Shown piece after piece: positions 1 through 39,705 of a DNA stretch of 39,838 nucleotides (position 1 is the first letter of the stretch; every line of letters starts with the position of its first letter). Made by a program: the position numbers and the translations under genes. This stretch comes from Candidatus Thioglobus pontius. GTDB taxonomy: Bacteria > Pseudomonadota > Gammaproteobacteria > PS1 > Pseudothioglobaceae. The notes beneath the pieces were generated by a model that worked only from the letters and a program-made list of their open reading frames with translations, ran no database searches and was not told where the DNA came from. The stretch is taken from contig JACNGB010000039.1 of assembly GCA_014384345.1 (NCBI GenBank), positions 1-39,838 of the forward strand, given 5' to 3'.

Positions 1-197
1 GACGGGTGTTGATGCTCGTCAATTGGGAGTTGTGCACTTATGAGTCGAATCCGCCATTTCCCTTCTTCAGATTTTTTTGGGGAGTCATGCGTTCCATCAG
101 CAACTTTATCACAAAAAATACTTGCCTTTACAGGCTTCCAATCTTCAGGAAGCAATCCAACTTCTGTCTCAATCCAGCCGTTTGGCAATTCACTCAT
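1..197 (-). CDS. hsdS: Type I restriction-modification specificity subunit, N-terminal fragment
   Basis: This is the start of a gene cut off by the window edge; about 65 residues are visible. HsdS carries the target recognition domains that direct the HsdM/HsdR complex to its DNA site. The visible protein starts MSELPNGWIETEVG and has the VADGTHDSPKK stretch typical of the first recognition domain. Its ATG lies within the last codons of the upstream RhuM-Fic gene as ATGAGTGA, an 8-base overlap that implies translational coupling. Residues encoded by roughly positions 1-52 look less like an HsdS domain to me, so a junction or frameshift there is possible. The call rests on a short stretch plus the hsdM context. 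Confidence 0.7.
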   Translation of the reverse strand, partial: MSELPNGWIETEVGLLPEDWKPVKASIFCDKVADGTHDSPKKSEEGKWRIRLISAQLPIDEHQHP

Positions 198-1170
198 GGT
201 GATTTCCTGTTAACAATACAACTACCAAGCCAATGACTTTGTCTTTATCCGTTGGATCACTTTGGGCAATCAGCAAGGTAATTGCTGTTAATGCTTCTGG
301 GGTGATTTTGGCTCTAAAATCAATTTGGGCTTTTTGCAAAAACCAGATAAATGTAAACGCGCCTGTGCGTTTGTTACCATCATTAAATGGATGATTTTTA
401 ACAATAAAATAAAGCAAATGTGCGGCTTTTTCTTCAATGGTTGGATAGGCGTCTTCACCAAATACTGATTGAAAAACATTGCCAAATATCCCTGCCAAAG
501 TGTCTTCTTTCTTTTCTTGGGCGAACAGTTGAGTGGCTTGATTATTGGCAATTAAACCTTGTTTTAATTGAGCTATAGCCTCATACAAAGTGCTGGATTC
601 TAACTGAATATCTTGTTTGGTTAAGCCACCTTTAGGTAGTTTGTCTTCATCAAATGATTCAAGTGAAAACCAAGTATGAGCAAAGCTTTTGATTAATACT
701 AATACATCATCCGCTTTAAGCAAGGTGTTATTACTGGTGAGTGTTTTTACCTCATCCACCGCTTGCATAAAGCTGGCGTAATTTTGCTCAATGCGTGATG
801 GGTTAATAGTGAAGCCTTTTGACAGATGATCTTTTAAAGTGCGTGTAGCCCAAATACGAAACTGCGTACCTTTAATTGAGTTCACCCTATAACCAACCGA
901 GATAATTGCATCTAAGTTATAAAAGTTAATTTTTCTTTTTACTTGTCTATTTCCTTCTTGACGAACTACCGAGGATTTCTCGGTAGTTGCCTTTTCTTTC
1001 AACTCGCCAGATTGATAAATGTTTTTCAGATGCAAACCTATCGTATCTGTATCTTTATCGAAAAGTTCTGACATATCAGCTTGAGACATCCAAATGGTTT
1101 CTTGGTTAACATCCAATCTAACCTCAATATCATGACCTTTTTCTTGATAAATAATTATATCTTTGCTCAT
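190..1170 (-). CDS. RhuM family protein fused to a Fic/Doc domain
   Basis: 326 residues in two parts. Residues 1 to about 145 match the RhuM (virulence protein) type of N-terminal domain. The C-terminal part carries a Fic/Doc core with HPFNDGNKR at residues 260-268. Fic enzymes transfer AMP or other phosphate-linked groups to a target protein side chain; Doc phosphorylates a translation factor. The last glycine of the usual Fic motif (GNGR) is lysine here (GNKR), as in Doc, so the chemistry could be Doc-like. The gene overlaps hsdM by 4 bases (ATGA) and hsdS by 8 bases, so it is made with the restriction-modification subunits. Its target and its link to the system cannot be read from sequence. 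Confidence 0.85.
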   Translation of the reverse strand: MSKDIIIYQEKGHDIEVRLDVNQETIWMSQADMSELFDKDTDTIGLHLKNIYQSGELKEKATTEKSSVVRQEGNRQVKRKINFYNLDAIISVGYRVNSIKGTQFRIWATRTLKDHLSKGFTINPSRIEQNYASFMQAVDEVKTLTSNNTLLKADDVLVLIKSFAHTWFSLESFDEDKLPKGGLTKQDIQLESSTLYEAIAQLKQGLIANNQATQLFAQEKKEDTLAGIFGNVFQSVFGEDAYPTIEEKAAHLLYFIVKNHPFNDGNKRTGAFTFIWFLQKAQIDFRAKITPEALTAITLLIAQSDPTDKDKVIGLVVVLLTGNHHE

Positions 1171-2672
1171 AGCTTAAAGCCTATTTTTGCCAATTGAATT
1201 TTGATGTTTTCATCAAGTAATTTTTCTTGTGTCATTTGCTTGGCAAGTGTTTGCGTTAGTTCTTGCATTTTATCCGCAAAGGGAATGCCGTCATCTTCTT
1301 CATCAGGAATGCCAACATAGCGCCCAGGTGTAAGCACAAAGTTGTGTTTTTCTAGTTCTGCACGTTGTGCAGATTTGCAATAGCCTTTGATGTCTTCATA
1401 GTCTGTGTTGTTTTTCCAATTATGATAAGTTTGCTCGATAGTCTGAATGTCTTCTGGGGCAAATTCCCTATGCACTCGGTCTTTCATAAAGCCCATTTCT
1501 GAAGCATCAATAAATAGCGTTTCGCCTTGGCGCTGCTGTTTATTGCGGCGCAGTATCCAAATAGTGGCTGGAATGCCTGTGTTGTAAAACAACTGTTTCG
1601 GCAAGGCAACAATGCAATCGACTAAATCAGCTTTAACTAGATTTGTGCGAATATCGCCCTCGCCAGAAGTATTGGAACTCAAACTACCATTTGCCAGAAC
1701 AGTTGCCATAACACCATTTGGCGCAAGGTGATAGAGCATGTGTTGCATCCAAGCAAAGTTGGCATTGCCTGCGGGCGGTAGGCCGTATTTCCAACGAGCG
1801 TCCTCAGCGAGAATATCATGCCCCCATTCTTTTTGATTAAATGGTGGATTGGCCAAAATGTAATCAGCTTTTAGATCAGGATGCGAATCGTGCAAAAAAC
1901 TGCCTTGAGTGTTCCACGATACAAACTGCGAGTTGATATTTCGAATTGCAAGGTTCATTTTTGAGAGCTTCCAAGTAGTCTGATTAGACTCCTGACCATA
2001 AATGGTAATATCAGAAATATTACCCTGATGCTCCTCAACGAATTTTTCACTCATGACAAACATACCGCCACTACCACAAGCAGGATCGTACACTCTGCCT
2101 TTGTATGGCTCAATCATCTCTACCATGAGTTTTACGATGGATTTTGGGGTGTAGAATTGCCCGCCTTTCTTGCCCTCTGCATTGGCAAATTCGCCTAAGA
2201 AATATTCATACACTCTGCCAAGTAAATCTTTTGAATGCTCGTCTTGAGCTTGAAGCTCGATATCAGAGATGACATCAATGAGCTGTCCGAGTGCTGTTTT
2301 ATCAAGATTAGGCTTGGCGTAAACTTTCGGCAATACGTGTTTTAGCTCAATATTTTCTTTTTCAATGGCAGACATGGCGTTGTCAATTTCAACGCCAATT
2401 TCGGGCAGCTTTGCCTTGGCTTGTAAGCTGCCCCAGCGCGCATCCTTTGGTACAAAAAATATATTCTCAGCTATGTACTCATCTCTATCTTCGGCATCTG
2501 AAAAATCGTCAGCATCAAGTCGGTTATAAAGCTCAGAAAATGAATCAGAAATATACTTAAGGAAGATAAGCCCTAAAACCACGTTTTTATATTCTGCAGC
2601 ATCAATATTTTTGCGCAATTTATCTGCGGTGTTAAATAGTGCTGATTCAAAGTTTTTGTTGTTTTCTGGCAT
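1167..2672 (-). CDS. hsdM: Type I restriction-modification DNA methyltransferase subunit HsdM
   Basis: 501 residues, close to the usual family length. HsdM uses S-adenosylmethionine to methylate adenine at the site selected by HsdS, and forms the M2S core that the HsdR translocase joins. The N-terminal HsdM helical domain covers about residues 8-145. The catalytic domain shows the SAM-binding motif DPACGSGG at 196-203 and the N6-adenine motif NPPF at 275-278. The start lies 12 bases after the radC stop, and the end overlaps the RhuM-Fic gene by 4 bases. No hsdR is in this window; it would be expected to the left of position 1. Confidence 0.95.
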   Translation of the reverse strand: MPENNKNFESALFNTADKLRKNIDAAEYKNVVLGLIFLKYISDSFSELYNRLDADDFSDAEDRDEYIAENIFFVPKDARWGSLQAKAKLPEIGVEIDNAMSAIEKENIELKHVLPKVYAKPNLDKTALGQLIDVISDIELQAQDEHSKDLLGRVYEYFLGEFANAEGKKGGQFYTPKSIVKLMVEMIEPYKGRVYDPACGSGGMFVMSEKFVEEHQGNISDITIYGQESNQTTWKLSKMNLAIRNINSQFVSWNTQGSFLHDSHPDLKADYILANPPFNQKEWGHDILAEDARWKYGLPPAGNANFAWMQHMLYHLAPNGVMATVLANGSLSSNTSGEGDIRTNLVKADLVDCIVALPKQLFYNTGIPATIWILRRNKQQRQGETLFIDASEMGFMKDRVHREFAPEDIQTIEQTYHNWKNNTDYEDIKGYCKSAQRAELEKHNFVLTPGRYVGIPDEEDDGIPFADKMQELTQTLAKQMTQEKLLDENIKIQLAKIGFKL

Positions 2673-2684
2673 TAAATTTTCCTT

Positions 2685-3344
2685 TTATAATTTGTTTTGC
2701 TCTTGCAGACTAACAAATCCATCTTTACTAAAAATAATATGATCCATCAAATCAACACCTAAAAGCTTCGCGCCATCTTTAAGACGATTAGTAATGTTAA
2801 TATCTTCTTTGCTAGCCTCAAGATTACCACTTGGGTGATTGTGTGCAATGATAATTCCAGCTGCTCTATCAGTCAGTGCATCGGCAAATACTTCGCGTGG
2901 ATGCACTAAAGAGCTATTCAGTGTACCAATAAAAACCACGCGTTTTTCAATAATATGATTTGCACCATCTAGTGTGATAACAATAAAGTACTCTTGTTGT
3001 TTGTTTTTAAAATCTCTAAGCTCATCGTATATTTGTACAGGTGAAGTGATTTTAGTATTTTGCTTAATGAGGTATCTTCGACTTAGCTCAATCGCTGAGA
3101 TAATTTTGCTGGCTTTAGCTTTGCCTAAGCCGCTAATTTTTAAAAGACTATCAAGCGTGATATTTTCAAAATCATTTTCAAAATTTTTAATGATTTCACG
3201 AGAGAGCTGGAGTACATCCTTATCCTTGCTACCAGAACCCATTAGTATTGCCATTAACTCATAATCTTTTAAGGCTGAAGCACCTTTAGTCTCAAGCTTT
3301 TCTCTGGGCTTATCAACAGCAACTAAATCGTTAATTTTTTTCAT
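2685..3344 (-). CDS. radC: RadC-family JAMM-domain protein
   Basis: 219 residues. The N-terminal part has a helix-hairpin-helix around residues 66-88 (ISGLGKAKAS). The C-terminal JAMM/MPN+ metalloprotease-like domain has E151 and the metal motif HNHPSGNLEASKED at 168-181, with H168, H170, S178 and D181 in place. Although named for DNA repair, the biochemical role of RadC is unsettled, and paralogues often sit in mobile or defence regions. Here it is the first gene of the radC-hsdM-rhuM/fic-hsdS transcription unit, 12 bases before hsdM. It could be either the core chromosomal radC or an island copy; its position argues for the latter. Confidence 0.9.
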   Translation of the reverse strand: MKKINDLVAVDKPREKLETKGASALKDYELMAILMGSGSKDKDVLQLSREIIKNFENDFENITLDSLLKISGLGKAKASKIISAIELSRRYLIKQNTKITSPVQIYDELRDFKNKQQEYFIVITLDGANHIIEKRVVFIGTLNSSLVHPREVFADALTDRAAGIIIAHNHPSGNLEASKEDINITNRLKDGAKLLGVDLMDHIIFSKDGFVSLQEQNKL

Positions 3345-3416
3345 AATGAGCTATTTAAATTTAAGTTCTAAATATACCCTATTTATCAAAAATCCATGCG
3401 GTCAATCTAATGCAAA

Positions 3417-3533
3417 TTAGGGCTGCACACCTTTTTTCTTCTGCTCTTTTTTCTTATCTTTAAATATTTTAGCTCTAAATAGCTTAGAGTGTCTAACCGC
3501 ATGTTTTAGCTTGTTCTTTACCTTGTATTTCAT
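3417..3533 (-). CDS. Small basic ORF resembling ribosome rescue factor ArfA
   Basis: A 38-residue ORF, rich in Lys and Arg. The stretch KHAVRHSKLFRAKIFKDKKK resembles the N-terminal LFR.RV.K.KK pattern of ArfA, the factor that recruits RF2 to stalled ribosomes without a stop codon. The KGKGSY-type segment common in ArfA is not recognisable (KKKEQKKKG instead), so the match is partial. There is no strong ribosome binding site. It lies 27 bases downstream of the AbiEii stop on the same strand. It could also be a chance ORF. Confidence 0.42.
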   Translation of the reverse strand: MKYKVKNKLKHAVRHSKLFRAKIFKDKKKEQKKKGVQP

Positions 3534-3560
3534 GAATATTTTTCGATTTTGTGGTTATTT

Positions 3561-4385
3561 TTACAATTGTTCAACTCTACTCAAAAATAGATCTACGCTC
3601 CATAAATTTAGCGACTCAACCTCTTCTGGCTTGATAAATCTTTCAACATCAGACCTTGCCTTATTCCAGTCAAGGTTTTCAATTTTTTTAGATAACTCCA
3701 TTTTCACAAACTCTTTATTAAAATTTGGAATATTTTGACCTTTATATGGGCCCATTTGAAACAGTGCATATTGCAATAGATCGTAATTAATCGAATGATT
3801 ATTTTTAACATACCACAGGAAGTCATACCAATCCCTACCCTTTACAAAGTCCCTGCAAAGTAATGCGTGCATTTTGCCTGCAAACAATGTCTCAATCGTA
3901 CCAATGCTGATTTTGTGCAGGATTGGAAAATCCAGAATCTTGTCAGTATAAATTGCACCTTCTGGTGGATTGGCATCAATCTCTAATTTAATAACCACCT
4001 TTGACAATGATGGAAAGCTCAGTTGCCATTTTTCTGAATCTTTTTTTAATTCTCTTTTTTTAACAAAAGTATTGTCTTTAGATTTTTTGATTTGCATATC
4101 CAATCCATACTGCTTAAGCACGTTCAACACATCTGACATATAATTGTCAAAATCAAAATTTTCATCGGGAGTATTTAAAGTGAAATCCAAGTCTTCGGAA
4201 AAACGCTCTAGTCCATAAATAATTCTCAGCGCCGTACCACCACAAAAATGCACATGCTCAAAAAACCTAGTAGTTGACAATGCATACAAAATAATCTCTT
4301 GGGTGATCTCCTTTACAGCATTAGTCTCTTCATCTTGAGTCCTGATGTTGTATCGACTCAGTCTTTGTTCAATTAAATTATTCAT
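3561..4385 (-). CDS. abiEii: AbiEii/AbiGii-type nucleotidyltransferase toxin
   Basis: 274 residues. The DNA polymerase beta-like nucleotidyltransferase fold shows GGTALR at 49-54, followed by SEDLDF at 63-68 with the metal-binding aspartates D65 and D67. This pattern defines the AbiEii family, the toxin of type IV abortive-infection systems; characterised relatives transfer nucleotides and block growth, some by modifying tRNA. Start and stop fit the operon: the ATG overlaps the antitoxin stop by 4 bases (ATGA). The pair most likely acts in phage defence or plasmid/island maintenance, an inference from family membership. Confidence 0.9.
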   Translation of the reverse strand: MNNLIEQRLSRYNIRTQDEETNAVKEITQEIILYALSTTRFFEHVHFCGGTALRIIYGLERFSEDLDFTLNTPDENFDFDNYMSDVLNVLKQYGLDMQIKKSKDNTFVKKRELKKDSEKWQLSFPSLSKVVIKLEIDANPPEGAIYTDKILDFPILHKISIGTIETLFAGKMHALLCRDFVKGRDWYDFLWYVKNNHSINYDLLQYALFQMGPYKGQNIPNFNKEFVKMELSKKIENLDWNKARSDVERFIKPEEVESLNLWSVDLFLSRVEQL

Positions 4386-5023
4386 AAATGATCCTTTATA
4401 CTTTTTAGAATGACTTGCAATCGATAGCTTTTGTAAATTTTTAACATGTTGTTAATTTCATCAATGTTCACAAACTCTTTGTAACCAACAAACTCATTCC
4501 AATCAAAACGTAAATCTTCAACCATATCACTAACTGAATCATACTCCTTACCTTTTAGAACGATAAAATCCATCAGTGCCTTTAAAGGTGTAGCAATCAA
4601 ATAAGCATCATTATCTTTTTTAATTTGATAAAAACCAAAATTAAAATAACCAATTTTTAAATGTGAGAATGAAAACAGTCCAACTGGTGTGTGTGTGTTT
4701 GAGGTTTTTCGAGTGGTTACTGAAGTGGTTGTGTAAACCGCTTCGGGAATTAAGCCATAAAAAGACAAGGCGGATTCTAGGCTAACATAAGACGGTGTAA
4801 TAATATAATTTGCCACTGAAAATGCATTGTAAACACTATTTTTTAAATCTGCGGCACGCAAGTACAATCCATTTTTTACTCTGATCAGTCTTCCATTTTG
4901 GCATGTGCGCTTAATAAAAGAACGCTTAGCATCACTAGATTTACCCACTAGAACGGTGTCAATAACCGATAATGGCAAAACATTAGAATGCGTTTTATTG
5001 TTAATTTTATTAAGTAAATCCAT
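4382..5023 (-). CDS. abiEi: AbiEi-family antitoxin / transcriptional repressor
   Basis: 213 residues from the chosen ATG at 5023. The reading frame can be opened 24 bases further with a TTG at 5047, but that codon lies inside a palindrome and no ribosome binding site supports it. The N-terminal part resembles the winged-helix domain of AbiEi (LPLSVIDTVLVGKSSDAKR, then a stretch on strand-forming residues giving RVKNGLYL). The rest matches the AbiEi C-terminal antitoxin domain (SYVSLESALSFYGLIPE at about 85-100). In characterised systems AbiEi represses its own promoter by binding inverted repeats and counters AbiEii without a stable complex. The next gene, abiEii, overlaps by 4 bases. Confidence 0.88.
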   Translation of the reverse strand: MDLLNKINNKTHSNVLPLSVIDTVLVGKSSDAKRSFIKRTCQNGRLIRVKNGLYLRAADLKNSVYNAFSVANYIITPSYVSLESALSFYGLIPEAVYTTTSVTTRKTSNTHTPVGLFSFSHLKIGYFNFGFYQIKKDNDAYLIATPLKALMDFIVLKGKEYDSVSDMVEDLRFDWNEFVGYKEFVNIDEINNMLKIYKSYRLQVILKSIKDHL

Positions 5024-5072
5024 TTTTATATGTATTAAATGTGTCAAATATTGACACTTTTTATATGTATTA
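5023..5072 (-). promoter_or_regulatory. Candidate AbiEi operator: palindrome between direct repeats
   Basis: GTGTCAAATATTGACAC at 5041-5057 is a perfect 7+3+7 palindrome. It is flanked by two copies of a 15-base direct repeat, TTTTTATATGTATTA, at 5023-5037 and 5058-5072. The array lies immediately upstream of the abiEi ATG. AbiEi proteins are known to bind inverted repeats in their own promoters, so an autoregulatory operator is the natural reading. The repeats are seen directly; the function is inferred. Confidence 0.6.
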
Positions 5073-5100
5073 GAATAACATAAACAGAAAATAATTTCAA
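5072..5100 (-). promoter_or_regulatory. Possible sigma-70 promoter of abiEi-abiEii
   Basis: On the minus strand TTGAAA (5095-5100) and TATTCT (5072-5077) are separated by 17 bases. The -35 is 5/6 and the -10 is 4/6 against consensus. The start site would fall just ahead of the palindrome, so AbiEi bound there would block early transcription. TATAAA inside the first direct repeat is an alternative -10. Confidence 0.35.
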
Positions 5101-5118
5101 CTTAGCTAGTTTAATTCT

Positions 5119-5141
5119 ATGCAATACTATCAATATTGCAT
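5119..5141. repeat. Inverted repeat in the abiEi / phosphoesterase gap
   Basis: ATGCAATA (5119-5126) and TATTGCAT (5134-5141) form an 8-bp stem with a 7-base loop. It lies after the metallophosphoesterase stop and upstream of abiEi. No T-run follows on either strand, so it is not a clear terminator. It might be an operator or a weak transcript end. Nothing else is recognised between 5100 and 5199. Confidence 0.4.
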
Positions 5142-5199
5142 AATCTTTATCCCTTTATGGAAGGCTGAAAGTACACAGAATCATACTTGCATACAAGGA

Positions 5200-5871
5200 C
5201 TAAATATTCCACTCAATATAATTTCTACCCAGTGAATACCTATAATCCTCGCCTAAGCAACTTGCATTAATATGGGTTGTTACTTCTCCATAACCATCCA
5301 TCACCCCTTGGGCAGAATGTATATGTCCGCATACATGTAATTTTGGATTTATCTTCTCAATGCGTTTAGCTAAACTTTTGTCGCCAAGATGCTCTTTTGT
5401 TGAATTAGCTGATACTGGATACTCTATTTTGTCTAAATATCCATATGCCGGTCCATGAGTGATGAGCACATCTACATCGTTTGGAATTTCTAACCATTTT
5501 TGCTCTGACTCTTCTTGTGACTTTAATGCAAACGCCCAGCCGCAGAATTCTGGTGTCCAGGGTGATCCATAAAATTTAATACCATTAATAACAACCTCGG
5601 AATCTTGAAGGTAAACAATAGAATCATCACCAAAACCATCGAGCAATCTTAATGCATTTTTTGGATCATACTCAAACATGCGATCGTGATTGCCCGCTAT
5701 AAGAATTTTATGTTGATAATCTTGTACAGCTAACCAATTAGCAAAATCCGCTATATCACCAACAACATGTCCGGAGTTCATAAAATCACCTGAATGGATT
5801 AGAATATCACCGCCAGGCAAGTCTAAATCTCTATGGCGCGTATGCGTGTCACTGATACAGGTTAATTTCAC
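5200..5871 (-). CDS. Calcineurin-like metallophosphoesterase
   Basis: 223 residues. The metal site motifs are all present: SDTH at 7-10, GD at 28-29, GNHD at 60-63, H139 in ITHGP, and GHIH at 182-185. This is the class-III-like small phosphoesterase family, whose members cleave phosphodiesters or phosphomonoesters with Mn/Fe; the substrate cannot be told from sequence. The start is GTG at 5871, and it shares one base with the yhaV stop (TAGTG), so the gene is coupled to the prlF-yhaV operon. It could be an unrelated passenger or a functional third component. Confidence 0.9.
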   Translation of the reverse strand: MKLTCISDTHTRHRDLDLPGGDILIHSGDFMNSGHVVGDIADFANWLAVQDYQHKILIAGNHDRMFEYDPKNALRLLDGFGDDSIVYLQDSEVVINGIKFYGSPWTPEFCGWAFALKSQEESEQKWLEIPNDVDVLITHGPAYGYLDKIEYPVSANSTKEHLGDKSLAKRIEKINPKLHVCGHIHSAQGVMDGYGEVTTHINASCLGEDYRYSLGRNYIEWNI

Positions 5872-6311
5872 TAATTAACGGACTCTATTAGCAATTTCTT
5901 CCAGCTATTTGGCGGATTGCCATTTTTTAGCATTTTTGAAAATGTATGATAAGCATCTGTTTTACTGCTATAAGCGCGTTTACTCTTTTCATCATTAACC
6001 CACACATATACAATTATTTTTGATTTGATATGGTATCGAAAAAATAGACGGTATTGCTGAAAAAATTTCGCTCTAAACCAATGCTTGTTATCTTTACCTA
6101 GTGTATTTCCTTGTCTATAAATTGATAGTGTTGGATCTTTAGGAATAACATCAAATGCTAGCTTATGAATAGCAGCTAATCTTTTAGTTGCGGCATTATT
6201 GACATAACCAGCTGAGTCTTTTTGTTTAAGCTTTTCAACTTGACTAGTTAGTTCATTTAGCTGATCAGTAAATAGCGGATGCACAAGAATCGTCCAGCCA
6301 TTACAAATCAA
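5871..6311 (-). CDS. yhaV: YhaV-family ribonuclease toxin
   Basis: 146 residues, near the length of the E. coli toxin. YhaV is a RelE-superfamily ribonuclease that cleaves mRNA and is held inactive by PrlF. The family pattern is clear: NGW..LVHPLF near the start, AATKRLAAIHKL in the middle, QQYRLFFRYH, then WVNDE..KRAY..KTDAYHTFSKMLK.G.PP..W to the end. The first in-frame start is a TTG at 6311 inside the prlF coding region, an 11-base overlap. No in-frame ATG is available nearby, and the TTG places the conserved NGW at the expected position. Confidence 0.92.
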   Translation of the reverse strand: MICNGWTILVHPLFTDQLNELTSQVEKLKQKDSAGYVNNAATKRLAAIHKLAFDVIPKDPTLSIYRQGNTLGKDNKHWFRAKFFQQYRLFFRYHIKSKIIVYVWVNDEKSKRAYSSKTDAYHTFSKMLKNGNPPNSWKKLLIESVN

Positions 6312-6603
6312 TCTTCACTCCTCCAACCAGCGATTCAATTCTACTAACTAATTTTTTATCAATCAATTTTAATTGACTAGGATTCTGCTTTATATCTTGA
6401 GCTAAAAATTCAAGAAACCCATCTAATATAGGATCACTTTCTGATTGCTTTGCACGTGACATTCGTACATCACCATTAGATTCAACGGTGTAGCGTATTT
6501 TCTCTCTTTTATTTAGATGTAGGGCCTTACGCACAACATCTGGTACGGTGGTTTGATAACGGTCTGTTAAAGTAGACTCGCCTGTTATGATTGCTTGAGA
6601 CAT
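6301..6603 (-). CDS. prlF: PrlF-family antitoxin (AbrB-like)
   Basis: 100 residues from the ATG at 6603. An upstream in-frame ATG at 6615 is possible, but the strong Shine-Dalgarno GGAGG lies between the two and is correctly spaced only for 6603. The N-terminal SpoVT/AbrB-type DNA-binding fold is seen in STLTDRYQTTVPDVVRKAL, followed by the PrlF-type tail. PrlF neutralises YhaV and the complex represses its own operon. It is the first gene of prlF-yhaV-phosphoesterase and is preceded by a good promoter with palindromes. Confidence 0.92.
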   Translation of the reverse strand: MSQAIITGESTLTDRYQTTVPDVVRKALHLNKREKIRYTVESNGDVRMSRAKQSESDPILDGFLEFLAQDIKQNPSQLKLIDKKLVSRIESLVGGVKIDL

Positions 6604-6621
6604 ATCGTCCTCCATTCAACG

Positions 6622-6856: not shown

Positions 6857-6941
6857 TGGTGCGGAAGGAGAGACTCGAACTCTCACGTCTTACGACACTG
6901 GAACCTAAATCCAGCGTGTCTACCAATTCCACCACTCCCGC
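6857..6941 (-). tRNA. tRNA-Leu, anticodon UAG
   Basis: 85 bases including an encoded CCA (6857-6859). The acceptor stem GCGGGAG pairs with CTTCCGC (one G-U). The anticodon stem-loop is CTGGA-TTTAGGT-TCCAG, giving UAG, which reads CUA and other CUN codons. A long variable arm (TGTCGTAAGACGT), as in class II tRNAs, and the T loop GTTCGAGTC confirm the type. The 3' end faces the defence and toxin-antitoxin genes, consistent with use as an integration site. Confidence 0.97.
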
Positions 6942-18424: not shown

Positions 18425-19342
18425 ATGCCGATGATTCGCCTTTTATCAATCACACTACTGTTGCTATCTAACAATGCAATGTCAGCACCCAGCCTTGTTG
18501 TTAGTATTGCACCAGTCCACTCTATAGTTAGCAACATTACTCACGGTATTACCAAGCCACAGCTATTACTTAAAGATAATCAATCTGCTCACCATTTTCA
18601 CCTAAAACCTTCGCAACTCTCTTTGGTTGAAAATGCAGATTTAGTTATTGCCATTCATCCACGCATGGAAGAAGGATTAAACAAAACGCTGAGCAATATA
18701 GAGTCAGATAAAAAAATCTATATTGCTTCTTATGATGAGCATGATGAGCATGATGAGCATGATGAGCATGATGAGCATGATGAGCATGATGAGCATGATG
18801 AGCATGATGAGCATGATGAGCATTCTCAGAATAGTCCAAACTATCACCTATGGCTAAGTATTAATCATATGCAAAACTTTGCTAAAAAATTAACCAATCG
18901 TTTGTCTAACTTAGATACCAAAAACTCAGCTATCTATCAGCAAAACTATTTAAAGCTTGATCGAAAATTAACCCTATTAAAACAAAACATTCAGCAAATT
19001 TTGAAACATTCCAACCAGTCTATTGCTAGCTATTCAAATGCGTTCGGACACTTTATCAAAGAGAATGAATTAAAACAATCAACACTCATCACTTCAAAAC
19101 ACGAAGAGCGTTTAAGTATATATAAAATCATTAAAGCCAAAAAATCCATGCAGGCCAATAAGGCTAAATGTCTTTTAGCATCTACAGGTGTTGCCCCTAA
19201 ACGCATCAATACACTAACTGAAGGGCTTAAGATTAACACAGTACAGATTGATCCTATAGGCTCTGAATTTAACTCAGGCAATAGGCAATATTTTCAACTA
19301 CTAAATAACGTGGCCATCCAAGTAAACCAATGTCTACAGTAA
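18425..19342 (+). CDS. znuA: ZnuA-like metal ABC transporter substrate-binding protein
   Basis: 305 residues with a signal peptide (residues 1 to about 20, cleavage near AMSA). ZnuA captures periplasmic Zn for the ZnuBC permease. Family segments: SIAPVHSIVSNI, SAHHFHLKPSQLSLVENADLVI with His56-58, then a metal-rich loop of ten DEH units (104-133), H141 in YHLWLS, and IDPIGS near the end. The usual third ligand position (His in HDAYGYF) reads SNAFGHF, so His is replaced by Ser with another His four residues on. It is about as long as typical ZnuA once the loop is counted. No znuB or znuC is adjacent. Its end overlaps bioC by 13 bases. Confidence 0.85.
   Translation: MPMIRLLSITLLLLSNNAMSAPSLVVSIAPVHSIVSNITHGITKPQLLLKDNQSAHHFHLKPSQLSLVENADLVIAIHPRMEEGLNKTLSNIESDKKIYIASYDEHDEHDEHDEHDEHDEHDEHDEHDEHDEHSQNSPNYHLWLSINHMQNFAKKLTNRLSNLDTKNSAIYQQNYLKLDRKLTLLKQNIQQILKHSNQSIASYSNAFGHFIKENELKQSTLITSKHEERLSIYKIIKAKKSMQANKAKCLLASTGVAPKRINTLTEGLKINTVQIDPIGSEFNSGNRQYFQLLNNVAIQVNQCLQ
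18734..18823 (+). repeat. Tandem repeat of GATGAGCAT, ten units
   Basis: Ten perfect copies of the 9-base unit GATGAGCAT, coding (Asp-Glu-His) x10 in the ZnuA-like protein. Absence of silent differences between units points to recent slippage expansion or strong constraint. The unit is in-frame, so changes in copy number keep the reading frame. Confidence 0.97.
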
Positions 19343-29817: not shown

Positions 29818-31085
29818 TATCCTTTCACCATGCTTTTGCCGTGCTCAATATAGTATTCAAACTCTTCACGGAAATTTCTTAAGAAACTTTCAACAGGCAT
29901 TGCAGCAGCATCTCCTAGGGCGCAAATCGTATTGCCCATAATTTTTTCCTGCACACCCAATAATAAATCAATGTCGTCTGCCTTGCCTTTGCCGTCCATA
30001 ATGCGCTTTAGCACTCGATAAAGCCAGCCCGTGCCTTCGCGACACGGTGTACATTGGCCACAAGACTCATCATAGTAAAAATGCGCTAAGCGCGTTAACG
30101 CCTCAACCATACAAGTCGAGTCATCCATTACAATCACTGAACCAGCACCTAACATAGAGCCAGCTTTATCAATGCCATCATAATCCATGGTCATGCCCAT
30201 GGCTGCTTCTGCTGTTAATACTGGCGTCGATGAGCCACCCGGAATAACAGCTTTTAATTTGGCGCCATTACGCATACCACCAGCAAGCTCTAATAATTCT
30301 TTAAATGGCATACCCATAGATACTTCAAAGTTTGCCGGATTCGCCACATGACCTGAAACAGAAAACAGCTTGGTACCACCTGAATTTTCTACACCAAGAT
30401 CGGCAAACCACTGTCCGCCATTAGCCATAATATCTGGCACAGAGGCAAAACTTTCTGTATTGTTAATGGTGGTTGGCTTGCCAAATAAACCAACGTTAGC
30501 TGGGAATGGTGGTTTAAATCGTGGCTGGCCTTTTTTACCTTCAATTGATTCGAGCAAAGCCGTCTCTTCACCACAGATATAGGCGCCTGCGCCTAAATGT
30601 GCATACAAATCAAAATCAACCCCTGATTGATCAATATTTTTACCCAAAAGTCCGGCTGCATAAGCCTCTTTCAAAGCGCCTTCAAAACGATTAAACGGCT
30701 CCATAAACTCACCACGAATATAGTTGTAGCCAACCGTTGCGTTCATGACAAAGCTACCTATCGCCATACCTTCAATTACTGCATGTGGATTGTATCTAAG
30801 GATATCACGGTCTTTGCACGTGCCTGGCTCACCCTCGTCAGAATTACACACAATGTACTTTTGACCTTGTGCGTTGCGTGGCATAAAACTCCACTTAAGC
30901 CCGGTTGGGAAACCTGCGCCACCACGACCTCTTAAGCCTGAAGTTTTTAATTCTTCAATAATTTGCTCAGGGGTGTATTCGCCCTTAAGGATTTTGCGCC
31001 AAACACTATAACCACCGCTAGCCTCGTAGGTGGCTAATGACCAACATTGGTCTTTGTCTAGATTTTTAAAACAAACTTCATTCAT
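29817..31085 (-). CDS. nuoF: NADH-quinone oxidoreductase subunit F
   Basis: 422 residues. It holds FMN, the NADH site and one [4Fe-4S] cluster. [10 protein letters not shown] at 53-62 is the NADH/FMN glycine-rich loop. C342, C345 and C348 in [10 protein letters not shown], with C388, bind the cluster. It starts inside the end of nuoE (four-base overlap) and ends in the nuoG start (one base). Confidence 0.98.
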
Positions 31086-31555
31086 TTTAAGCCATCCACA
31101 ATTTCATCAATTTTTTCAATCGTTAGGTTTTCGTAGTACTGATCACCAATTTGAAACATTGGCGCACCCACACAAGCGCCTAGACACTCTACTTTTTTAA
31201 CGCTAACTAGGCCATCTTTACTAACTTCACCGGTTTTAACGCCTAGTTTGGTTTCAAGATGTGCAATTAGATCATCGGCACCATTTAACATGCAAGAGAT
31301 GTTATGGCAAAAACGAATTACGTGTTTACCCATCGGCTGATGATTGTAATTCTCGTAAAACGTAGCCACTTCAGCCGCAGCAATACCTGGCATATCCAAA
31401 TAATCAGCAACCGCTTGAATATTGTCGTGCGTTAATTGATTGTTATTTTCCGCCTGAACAATTTTCAAAGCCTCCATCACCGCAGAACTTTGACGTCCCT
31501 CTGGATATTTTGCTACCCAAGCATCGATTTGTTTTTTTGCTTTATTTGAAATCAT
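31082..31555 (-). CDS. nuoE: NADH-quinone oxidoreductase subunit E
   Basis: 157 residues, thioredoxin-like [2Fe-2S] protein of complex I. C83, C88, C124 and C128 form the ligands (CHNISC and CLGAC). A 151-base gap separates it from nuoD, filled by a palindromic element. Its own ribosome binding site is weak: AGGAAA lies about 20 bases upstream of the ATG. Confidence 0.97.
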
Positions 31556-31588
31556 GATTAATTAAACTTAAATTTCCTAAAAGGAGAA

Positions 31589-31703
31589 ACGAGTATTTTT
31601 ACTTTCTGCAAGGCAAGCGCAAGAATAAACAAAGGAGTGTAGTAAACGCTACATGACTGAGTGAATGATAAGCTTAACGCCGAAGAAGGTAAAAAGACGA
31701 AAT
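31589..31703. repeat. Structured palindromic element, copy 1 (nuoD-nuoE gap)
   Basis: 115 bases that share their two ends with a second copy at 39102-39219: ACGAGTATTTTTA then TTTCTGCAAGGC at one end, and AAAAGACGAAAT at the other. The ends are roughly inverted repeats. The centre has its own hairpin, TGTAG-TAAACG-CTACA (31638-31653). On the minus strand it begins four bases after the nuoD stop. No ORF is evident. It resembles REP/MITE-like elements in layout, with no transposase seen. Confidence 0.75.
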
Positions 31704-31706
31704 TTC

Positions 31707-32960
31707 TCATCGGTCTATTTCTCCAAATACAATATCTTGCGTACCAATAATAGTGACCACATCTGACAACATATGCCCTTTAGTCATTTCATCCATGGAG
31801 GCCAAATGTGCAAAACCAGGCGCTCTAATTTTTACTCTGTATGGCTTGTTAGCGCCATCAGAAATTAAGTAAATACCAAACTCACCCTTAGGATGCTCAA
31901 CCGCTTTATAAACTTCACCTTCTGGCAGTGAGTAGCCTTCAGTAAAGAGTTTAAAGTGATGAATTAATGACTCCATATCATCTTTCATGTCAGTGCGCTT
32001 TGGTGGCGCGACTTTTTTATCGTCACTCATCACTGAACCTGGATTCGCCTTAAGCCAATCAACACACTGACCAATAATTTTATTAGACTGGCGTAATTCT
32101 TCCATACGCACTAAATAACGATCATAACTGTCACCCGTGACACCTACTGGAATATCAAACTCAAGTTGATCATAAACCGCATACGGCTGATTTTTTCTTA
32201 AATCCCAAGCAACGCCAGAACCTCTCAACATAGGGCCAGTAAAGCCTAATTGCTTAGCACGTTTGGCAGAAACAATACCAATATTAACCAGTCTTTGCTT
32301 CCAAATGCGGTTCTCAGTTAATAAGTCATCATATTGTTTTATATGGCGTGGGAACTCTTTCACAAAATCATCAATAAAGTCTAGTAGCGAACCTTGGCGA
32401 TTCTCATTCATTACCTCTATTTCTTTGTCTGTACGCGTGTCTGTTTTCAGATATTTTGGCATCTGGTCTGGCAGATCACGGTACACACCACCTGGGCGGT
32501 AATAAGTAGCGTGCATACGAGAGCCTGAAACTGCCTCATAACAATCAATCAATTTTTCACGCTCACGGAATGCGTATAAGAAAATACTCATAGCGCCTAC
32601 GTCCAATGCGTGTGTACCTAGCCACATCAAGTGATTTAGAATTCGTGTAATTTCATCAAACATCACGCGAATGTATTTAGCACGCTCCGGCACCTCTAAC
32701 TCAAGCATGGTTTCAATCGCCATCACATAAGCATGCTCATTACACATCATCGAAACGTAATCTAGACGATCCATATAGCCAATTGACTGATTATAAGGTT
32801 TTGATTCAGCTAGCTTTTCAGTGCCACGGTGTAACAAGCCAATATGAGGATCAGCGCGCTCAATCACTTCGCCGTCAATTTCTAAAATGAGGCGGAGCAC
32901 GCCATGCGCTGCTGGATGTTGCGGACCAAAGTTAAGGGTATAGTTACGAATTTCCGCCAT
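31707..32960 (-). CDS. nuoD: NADH-quinone oxidoreductase subunit D
   Basis: 417 residues, the 49-kDa homologue that lines the quinone site with Nuo[16 protein letters not shown] near the start is the family's hallmark, and [14 protein letters not shown] is present in the middle. Separate nuoC and nuoD, rather than the nuoCD fusion of enterics, is the usual arrangement outside Enterobacterales. It follows nuoC by two bases. Confidence 0.98.
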
Positions 32961-38619: not shown

Positions 38620-39057
38620 ATGTACTTTAAAAACTCTGTTGCCGCCATTCTTGTTATCTTTGCAATTATTATTGGCGCTAAAACATTCTTCAGCAATTTA
38701 ATTCACGTAGGTTATGATGACAACTTAACGGTTGCGCAGCGTATTGCACCATTAGGCCAAGTATATTTAGAAGGTGACATTGACGTTAACGCCATTAAAG
38801 CTCCGGTTAAAACTGCTGCTAAAGCGCGTAGTGGTGAAGAGGTTTACACTGCAGTTTGTGCGTCGTGTCACTCAGTCGGTGTGATGAACGCGCCTAAATT
38901 TGGCAACAAAGCTGATTGGGCGCCAAGAGTTGAACGTGGCATTGCAGATTTAGTTAAGGTATCTATTTCTGGTAAAGGCGCTATGCCACCTAAAGGCACG
39001 TGTATGGATTGTTCGGATGATGAGCTAAAAGCAGCCATTGAGCACATGATCAAGTAA
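38620..39057 (+). CDS. Membrane-anchored cytochrome c5
   Basis: 145 residues. An uncleaved or signal-anchor helix at about 5-25 is followed by a linker and a class I c-type cytochrome. Heme is attached at CASCH (80-84), with H84 and M122 (GAMPPKG) as axial ligands. C128 and C131 (CMDC) are the extra pair typical of cytochrome c5. It likely carries electrons between the bc1 complex and a terminal oxidase or a sulfur-oxidising enzyme, on the periplasmic face; its partner is unknown. It stands alone, with a terminator after it. Confidence 0.93.
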   Translation: MYFKNSVAAILVIFAIIIGAKTFFSNLIHVGYDDNLTVAQRIAPLGQVYLEGDIDVNAIKAPVKTAAKARSGEEVYTAVCASCHSVGVMNAPKFGNKADWAPRVERGIADLVKVSISGKGAMPPKGTCMDCSDDELKAAIEHMIK

Positions 39058-39075: not shown

Positions 39076-39115
39076 CTCGTCTAACTTGCATATCAGTTTA
39101 GACGAGTATTTTTAT
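39076..39115 (+). terminator. Rho-independent terminator after cytochrome c5
   Basis: CTCGTCTAA (39076-39084) and TTAGACGAG (39098-39106) form a perfect 9-bp stem with a 13-base loop, followed by TATTTTTATTTT. The second arm overlaps the start of the palindromic element. Confidence 0.85.
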
Positions 39116-39219
39116 TTTCTGCAAGGCTTTTAAGATTTTTTGTCGACGGGAGTTTAGATTTTACTAAACGACCAAGTAAAAAATCTTAAGTAACGCAACA
39201 GAAAAACAAAAGACGAAAT
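39102..39219. repeat. Structured palindromic element, copy 2
   Basis: 118 bases, sharing ends with copy 1 at 31589-31703. Nested perfect stems: TTTTCTG/CAGAAAA (39115-39121 and 39199-39205), TTAAGATTTTTT/AAAAAATCTTAA (39130-39141 and 39178-39189) and GTTTAG/CTAAAC (39152-39157 and 39164-39169). On the minus strand it begins right after the asparaginase-like stop, as copy 1 does after nuoD. The stems differ in sequence from copy 1 but keep pairing, which suggests conserved structure. Confidence 0.8.
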
Positions 39220-39705
39220 CTAAATTTCTGTAAAAATGCCTAGGCTTTTGTCTTTCTTTACTTTGTCAAAATCAAACACTTGGCCATTCATAGCAATATA
39301 CACACCATTTGACTTAAGTTGCACTGCACTCAAAGCCACACCCAAATTAAACAAGGCATCAGAATTGTCAATTGAATATGGAATCATTGATCCAAACAAA
39401 ATCACAGTTTTGTCTTTAATGCTTTTAGCCAAAAATCGAGCCGTTTCCACCATAGTATCCGTACCATGTGTAATTAAGATATGTTGCTCATCACAAGACT
39501 GGCACTTATCCAAAATAAAAGAGCGATCTGCATCAGTCATTTCCAACGAATCTTTTAAAAACAATACCTCAGACAAGGTGTCAGCCATCGATCGTCCGCG
39601 ATTAAGCATATCCACTATATGCGTTTCAGTAAATGACAATTCACCAGTTAACTCCTTGTAGCTCTTGTCAATCGTACCGCCAGTGATTAAAACTTTGATT
39701 TTCAT
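39220..39705 (-). CDS. Asparaginase-like single-domain protein
   Basis: 161 residues, about half of a normal L-asparaginase. It has the N-terminal domain of the family with GGTID (9-13, T11 as nucleophile) and HGTDTM (80-85, T82 and D83). The second domain and the usual active-site lysine are missing. One-domain asparaginase homologues of this length occur in other bacteria, so it need not be a broken gene. Substrate unknown. No frameshift is seen. Confidence 0.8.
   Translation of the reverse strand: MKIKVLITGGTIDKSYKELTGELSFTETHIVDMLNRGRSMADTLSEVLFLKDSLEMTDADRSFILDKCQSCDEQHILITHGTDTMVETARFLAKSIKDKTVILFGSMIPYSIDNSDALFNLGVALSAVQLKSNGVYIAMNGQVFDFDKVKKDKSLGIFTEI

Follow-up and report, generated by a model that had tools for sequence, protein, structure and literature searches.

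Two non-coding hairpin elements with the folded core of ERIC sequences, probable members of a MITE-like mobile family

ERIC sequences have been described since 1991, mainly in enterobacteria and vibrios, and their origin, transposase and function are unsettled. Their range in the literature covers Enterobacteriaceae and Vibrionaceae (PMC10969869). The element analysed here resembles ERIC (also IRU or RU-1) in size, in its single long imperfect hairpin, in its intergenic position and in the motif order GCAAGGC, GGAG-stem-TGACT, CAACGC, GACG. It also resembles MITEs such as RUP/IS630 and R0/R2 of Pseudomonas fluorescens SBW25, which are short and non-coding and have TIRs common with a resident IS (PMC2229807, PMC2718517), and it differs from such IS-mobilised MITEs in that the TIRs and target duplications vary from genome to genome around a conserved inner core.

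The window, that is, the whole stretch of 39,838 nucleotides that was analysed, carries two copies of a 115-118 bp hairpin element, copy 1 at 31589-31703 and copy 2 at 39102-39219, both with the model strand on the plus strand. Most probably, both belong to a small (~115-130 bp), non-coding and non-autonomous mobile element family, MITE-like in character and built on an ERIC folded core, whose copies would be mobilised in trans and whose fold would be kept by selection. Copy 1 is located between nuoD (ORF 31707-32960, minus strand), whose stop codon is 3 bases away, and nuoE (ORF 31082-31555, minus strand), which lies downstream of it. Upstream of copy 2 there is a cytochrome c-like gene (38620-39057, plus strand; an ORF with a CxxCH motif in its translation), which would transcribe the model strand, and its other side touches the stop codon of an L-asparaginase-like ORF (39220-39705, minus strand; identity by eye only).

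This adjacency to a stop codon in both places had been reported in the first-pass annotation, and it was confirmed together with the internal parts of the element. Three motifs are exact in both copies: ACGAGTATTTTTA (31589 and 39102), TTTCTGCAAGGC (31603 and 39116) and AAAAGACGAAAT (31692 and 39208). The conserved apical module, a stem with GA on either side, was read from the plus-strand sequence at 31635-31656 in copy 1 (stem GTGTAG/CTACAT, 31637-31642/31649-31654) and at 39150-39171 in copy 2 (stem GTTTAG/CTAAAC, 39152-39157/39164-39169, with the tandem G.A beside it). Copy 2 has a 12-bp variable arm, TTAAGATTTTTT/AAAAAATCTTAA, in which 39130-39141 pairs with 39178-39189, as judged from both sequence and fold. 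On the other hand, the extent had been set about 5 bp too short at each end. The outermost GAGAA of copy 1 (31584-31588) is complementary to TTCTC (31704-31708), which overlaps the nuoD stop codon at 31707-31709, and the outermost TTTAG of copy 2 (39097-39101) is complementary to CTAAA (39220-39224), which contains the stop codon of the L-asparaginase-like ORF; these flanks are copy-specific.

The left end of copy 2 had to be corrected as well. It overlaps an intrinsic-terminator-like hairpin recognized in the sequence 3' of the cytochrome c gene, CTCGTCTAA..TTTAGACGAG followed by TATTTTTATTTT (39076-39118, plus strand), and the first bases of the copy are the 3' arm end and the T-run of this hairpin. 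In the relative G006, a similar terminator-like hairpin is present without the rest of the element. Intrinsic termination was discarded as the main role of the element, since no T-run follows its hairpin on either strand and only the left end of copy 2 is common with a terminator.

When the 26 bases of shared motifs were joined, they gave a 96% match with E = 1.2e-5 in the whole 1.25-Mb genome; each single short motif was near chance at 2 mismatches. The fold of copy 2 was better than 200 shuffles on both strands (z −3.9 and −3.2), and that of copy 1 was better than shuffles on the plus strand only (z −2.0). A BLAST search with copy 2 retrieved further copies, both from the own genome and from relatives; some of these stand in tandem at a spacing of 124-129 bp. 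Twenty BLAST-found copies, all from the window's family, and a structure drawn by hand were used to build covariance model R1. Copy 1 scored 110.5 bits with R1 and 102.4 bits with the broader model R2 (E = 7e-22 in the window), and copy 2, which spans the full length of both models, scored 90.7 and 83.7 bits (E = 2e-17 in the window). With R1, the element was found in 41 of the 60 genomes of the window's family, with up to 25 copies per genome.

One tandem array (L048, 1445-2183, genome G014) lies beside a fabG-like gene, and its first unit has about 370 bp inserted in the apical loop. Integron attC sites were considered by eye for the tandem copies (L048, L049) and their kept pairing, and do not fit, given the core and the lack of cassettes. 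At L070 (1501-1617, C18 of the own genome), a 302-aa reading frame appears to continue into the element and to terminate within it, a situation also reported for gene fusions with ERIC. A 94-bp short form occurs in genome G182 (L190-L192) within a longer exact repeat of at least three copies.

In the alignment of the 20 copies, which was not fitted to the structure, 90.6% of the cells pair and two-sided changes occur in 22 of the 35 pairs. None of 500 shuffles reached any of these measures, and sliding the partners lowered pairing to about 50%. An alignment of 105 copies, whose fitting to the structure favours pairing, showed two-sided compensatory changes in 33 of the 35 stem pairs and a covariation score of 0.712, compared with 0.08-0.15 with slid partners. 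Base-pair covariation therefore goes beyond ancestry and composition, which is what characterizes a structured RNA. The first-pass annotation had proposed a MITE-like and/or structured-RNA family with compensatory stem changes, an idea to be abandoned if no further copies existed in the genome or the stems did not covary. It was right in substance, since about 14 copies were detected in the own genome by R1 (E ≤ 4e-4), the element looks mobile and the covariation is strong.

The core is one long imperfect hairpin with fixed motifs on the model strand, AGTATTTTT..TTCTGCAAGGC, GGAG-stem-TGAC and AACGCAG..GACG, and with arms free to change in sequence provided that pairing is kept. Template switching can make imperfect hairpins perfect, and arms nearly free in sequence would also be expected of neutral quasi-palindromes kept perfect in this way, where covariation would come from mutation and not from selection. 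However, the same mismatched internal loops (tandem GA and AAGGC/AACGC) are kept in many copies from different phyla. Since template switching would erase such loops, this explanation is very unlikely, and selection on the fold is preferred. Complementarity extends into the outer flanks, at 78, 92, 90, 72 and 54% for offsets 0-4 among 50 copies of the window's family, and falls to background from offset 5. These outer 5 bp are complementary across the two sides in the whole of the window's family, with a sequence specific to each copy.

The relation with ERIC was established with ten enterobacterial ERIC loci from Klebsiella, Pantoea, E. coli, Salmonella and Rahnella. R1 matched nine of them over the full length at 24.3-49.1 bits, with E values from 1e-3 to 1e-9 in 28.8 kb, and R2 scored these nine at 36-62 bits. 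The R2 seed contains no ERIC by BLAST, its best match to one being 36 bases long. Since a model made from the window's family only matches ERIC loci end to end, the core is common to ERIC, and in core sequence as well as in secondary structure the element corresponds to the 127-bp ERIC. The ERIC query matches 59,791 places in E. coli records, and it is very close to the RU-1 consensus for E. coli published in PMC2759123. Three of the ten ERIC loci lie directly after a stop codon (L201, L206, L209), another feature in common with the window's element.

Despite this homology, the element is not an ERIC in the strict sense because the TATACCC/GGGTATA ends are absent, and its outer 5 bp (GAGAA/TTCTC and TTTAG/CTAAA in the window) vary between copies. 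In addition, there is no long nucleotide identity with ERIC, the arms of the window's family are much more variable, and the host of the window is apparently outside Enterobacterales/Vibrionaceae, neither group being suggested by its genome of 1.25 Mb or by its genes. Of 50 family copies, 12 have TA on both sides (offset 0 or 1), against about 2 expected. An E. coli ERIC copy matched the Rfam family RF02818 (V_AS5) over its full length at 48.1 bits, below the 96-bit cut-off, and on the basis of this full-length match V_AS5 (Vibrio RNA AS5) probably represents the ERIC of Vibrio, listed as an RNA. Neither window copy matched V_AS5 even at E ≤ 1, and a known Rfam RNA was discarded for both, as they matched no Rfam family at the gathering score or above chance.

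The suggestion in the first-pass annotation that the element could be a new family stands only in part: the core is the ERIC/IRU core of enterobacteria, while the branch, its very wide distribution and the exchangeable terminal repeats seem undescribed. No paper joining these families was found in a literature search mostly of papers outside subscription, and a search with the core sequence returned unrelated papers only. Single families presented here may have been listed earlier as local repeats, for example R178 of P. fluorescens (101 bp, PMC2718517), which fits the Pseudomonas copies in size and genus, the two features by which it was compared.

At class level, R1 found the element in 50 of 369 genomes and 41 of 272 genera. 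R2, used on Pseudomonadota at E ≤ 1e-3 per genome, a threshold at which at most a handful of false genomes are expected even with rough calibration, found it in 126 of 398 genomes and 61 of 213 genera. A scan of named genomes with a pattern of the core returned at least 119 stretches, mainly in Pseudomonas, Stutzerimonas, Halomonas and relatives, Salinicola and Nitrosomonas, and also in Bacteroidota (Alistipes, Tidjanibacter, Tannerellaceae and Lentimicrobiaceae); an earlier pattern with fixed outer ends gave no match in the scan. R2 recovered all 37 pattern-scan loci submitted to it at E ≤ 0.1, with only two of them not reaching E < 1e-4. Because the apical core is fixed by the pattern, the outer stems alone count as independent evidence in these loci, and they are complementary.

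Some of the distant copies are associated with RNA genes or RNA elements. Copies in L116 (1501-1614, 1910-2023 and 2469-2582), L117 and L129 (1145-1258 and 1501-1614) are in the 16S-tRNA-23S spacers of rRNA operons, with three copies in one spacer in two related genomes. One distant copy (L124) lies within a stretch that matches the FMN riboswitch.

Beyond the window's family, the core is enclosed by terminal repeats, which are the same throughout one genome but not from one genome to the next (TAGACCTCTTTCCAAA, TAGGACTTACGCAAA, GGGCACCTCTAAAAA and GAGACCTTTGCACGAG, and GGAACCTCTGAAAAA in Nitrosomonas europaea). The elements of genome G261 have the TIR GAGACCTTTGCACGAG, and five of seven are flanked by 5-bp duplications (ATAAT, AAATT, ACATT, TACAT and TATTT). 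A 1204-bp IS of this genome has that TIR as well, is flanked by a 5-bp duplication (AATGG) and encodes, in a 334-aa ORF, an IS5-family transposase (267.5 bits against a cut-off of 140). G261 thus shows the MITE feature of a TIR and duplication common to a resident IS. The interiors of the IS and the element differ inside the terminal repeat, and therefore the element did not arise simply by deletion from that IS. In N. europaea, G261 and G386, there are elements with extra sequence in one arm and intact terminal repeats (L452, L451 and L455, respectively).

In the window's own family, no partner IS was found, and a search for direct target duplications gave no convincing direct repeat. A fixed TIR was likewise rejected there, the outer 5 bp being copy-specific. 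At orthologous sites, some relatives carry the element, and others have none or only one end of it. The L076 site is a clean insertion at or next to TA, without a certain duplication, and at the copy 2 site the difference from relatives is more than a clean insertion. Four or more distinct types of element occupy the nuoD site, which is filled in at least 11 genomes and empty in others. Mean identity was 71% between copies at the same site and 61% between others, indicating that many same-site copies were inherited vertically, a point against current mobility. The element is nevertheless short, non-coding and multicopy, with both filled and empty sites, as MITEs are.

The first-pass annotation had also suggested a REP-like unit served by a RAYT-type transposase. 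Y1 genes are present in 25 of the 60 family genomes, with three in the own genome, and copy number follows the Y1 count with a rho of 0.60, a value not corrected for ancestry. Movement by RAYT, a Y1 tyrosine transposase, is nonetheless highly improbable: 18 of the 41 copy-bearing family genomes, with 1-12 copies each, have no Y1 gene at all, no copy was seen beside the eight Y1 genes inspected, and an element of 115 bp or more with TIRs and target duplications (in other genomes) is unlike the 20-40 bp GTAG-tagged REPs. Such tagged hairpins flanking a RAYT gene were not what was found here. CGTC-tagged REPs (PMC3733652) are similar in that the reverse strand of the element starts with ACTTCGTC and no dedicated transposase is known for them, but they are simple palindromes of 20-40 bp with 8-9 bp stems and CCA-like tails.

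With respect to the preferred MITE-like reading, the DDE transposases of resident ISs would mobilise the copies in trans, acting on the outer terminal repeats. The repeats so recognized would differ between host genomes, the IS5-family partner being the one example, in one genome. A broader proposal, put forward tentatively and with somewhat less than even confidence, is that the ERIC core is an old portable module, folding as a single strand, which has repeatedly gained or swapped terminal repeats from different IS families in Pseudomonadota and Bacteroidota. If so, ERIC would be only the enterobacterial branch, the missing transposase would be whichever resident IS matches the ends, and the conserved core with its tandem G.A would contribute positively to transposition or host tolerance. 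The wide distribution of the core, the differing terminal repeats and one complete IS5-family partner make the question of the mobiliser directly testable.

Strand asymmetry was evaluated on the same alignments. On the model strand, G.T exceeded A.C by 58 to 13 in the unfitted alignment and by 270 to 60 in the larger one, and without the conserved apical G.T pair by 50 to 13 and 201 to 60. Tandem G.A, with GA on both sides of the apical stem, was present in 17 of 20, 76 of 105 and 37 of 38 aligned rows. Next in frequency among the flank states was a coupled change, GC/AA (13 of 105). These features suggest that the model strand is the one that folds, as RNA or as single-stranded DNA. The rows are related, so no probability was attached to the asymmetry, and base composition and shared ancestry could account for part of it. 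A covarying core with a strand-specific non-Watson-Crick motif offers a precise target for deciding between RNA and single-stranded DNA.

Most copies in the window's family directly follow a stop codon or an RNA 3' end, and they do so in one orientation. In 29 copies the reverse-strand 5' end has a gene 3' end within 40 bases, compared with 9 copies for the opposite end. For the own genome the figures were 9 and 2, mostly within 10 bases, and the bias was weak in the Pseudomonas/Halomonas set (12 and 8). Copies also follow tRNA and rnpB-like 3' ends, the RNAs being identified by eye. We infer that, in this lineage, positions directly behind stop codons and the 3' ends of stable RNAs retain copies because insertion there spares genes; copies at gene 3' ends may then act as 3'-UTR hairpins.

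This placement could also be expected of a domesticated 3'-UTR RNA element, kept by the host, whose transcript hairpin would control 3'-end processing or stability of the upstream mRNA, with mobility being ancient. The one-sided orientation, the positions after tRNA and rnpB-like ends and the inheritance of several sites with conserved pairing are in its favour, and so is the case of Yersinia, in which ERIC at gene 3' ends alters mRNA level through RNase E (review PMC10969869). However, the G.U/A.C asymmetry and the tandem G.A indicate the strand opposite to that which most upstream genes transcribe, many orthologous sites are empty, and elsewhere the same core is found in MITEs with exact target duplications. 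Domestication is thus rather unlikely as the main explanation. A role purely as single-stranded DNA, in which the core would be a replication-fork or transposition hairpin (e.g., bound by transposase or a host factor) and would never be used as RNA, fits the strand asymmetry as well as RNA does, and the core travels with different IS ends. We know of no protein that binds the core, which counts against this possibility, and it is considered unlikely. The MITE-like reading accommodates either form, since the core would be kept because one strand folds when single-stranded, whether as RNA or as DNA during transposition.

Other features of the window were noted by eye away from the two copies. 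Positions 190-6615 look like a defence and toxin-antitoxin cluster, with Fic/RhuM-like and HsdM-like genes, an AbiEii/AbiEi-like pair (3561-5047) and a YhaV/PrlF-like pair (5871-6615), and the cluster adjoins a tRNA at 6860-6941. An ORF at 18425-19342 is like ZnuA, metal-binding, and includes a run of tandem HDE repeats.
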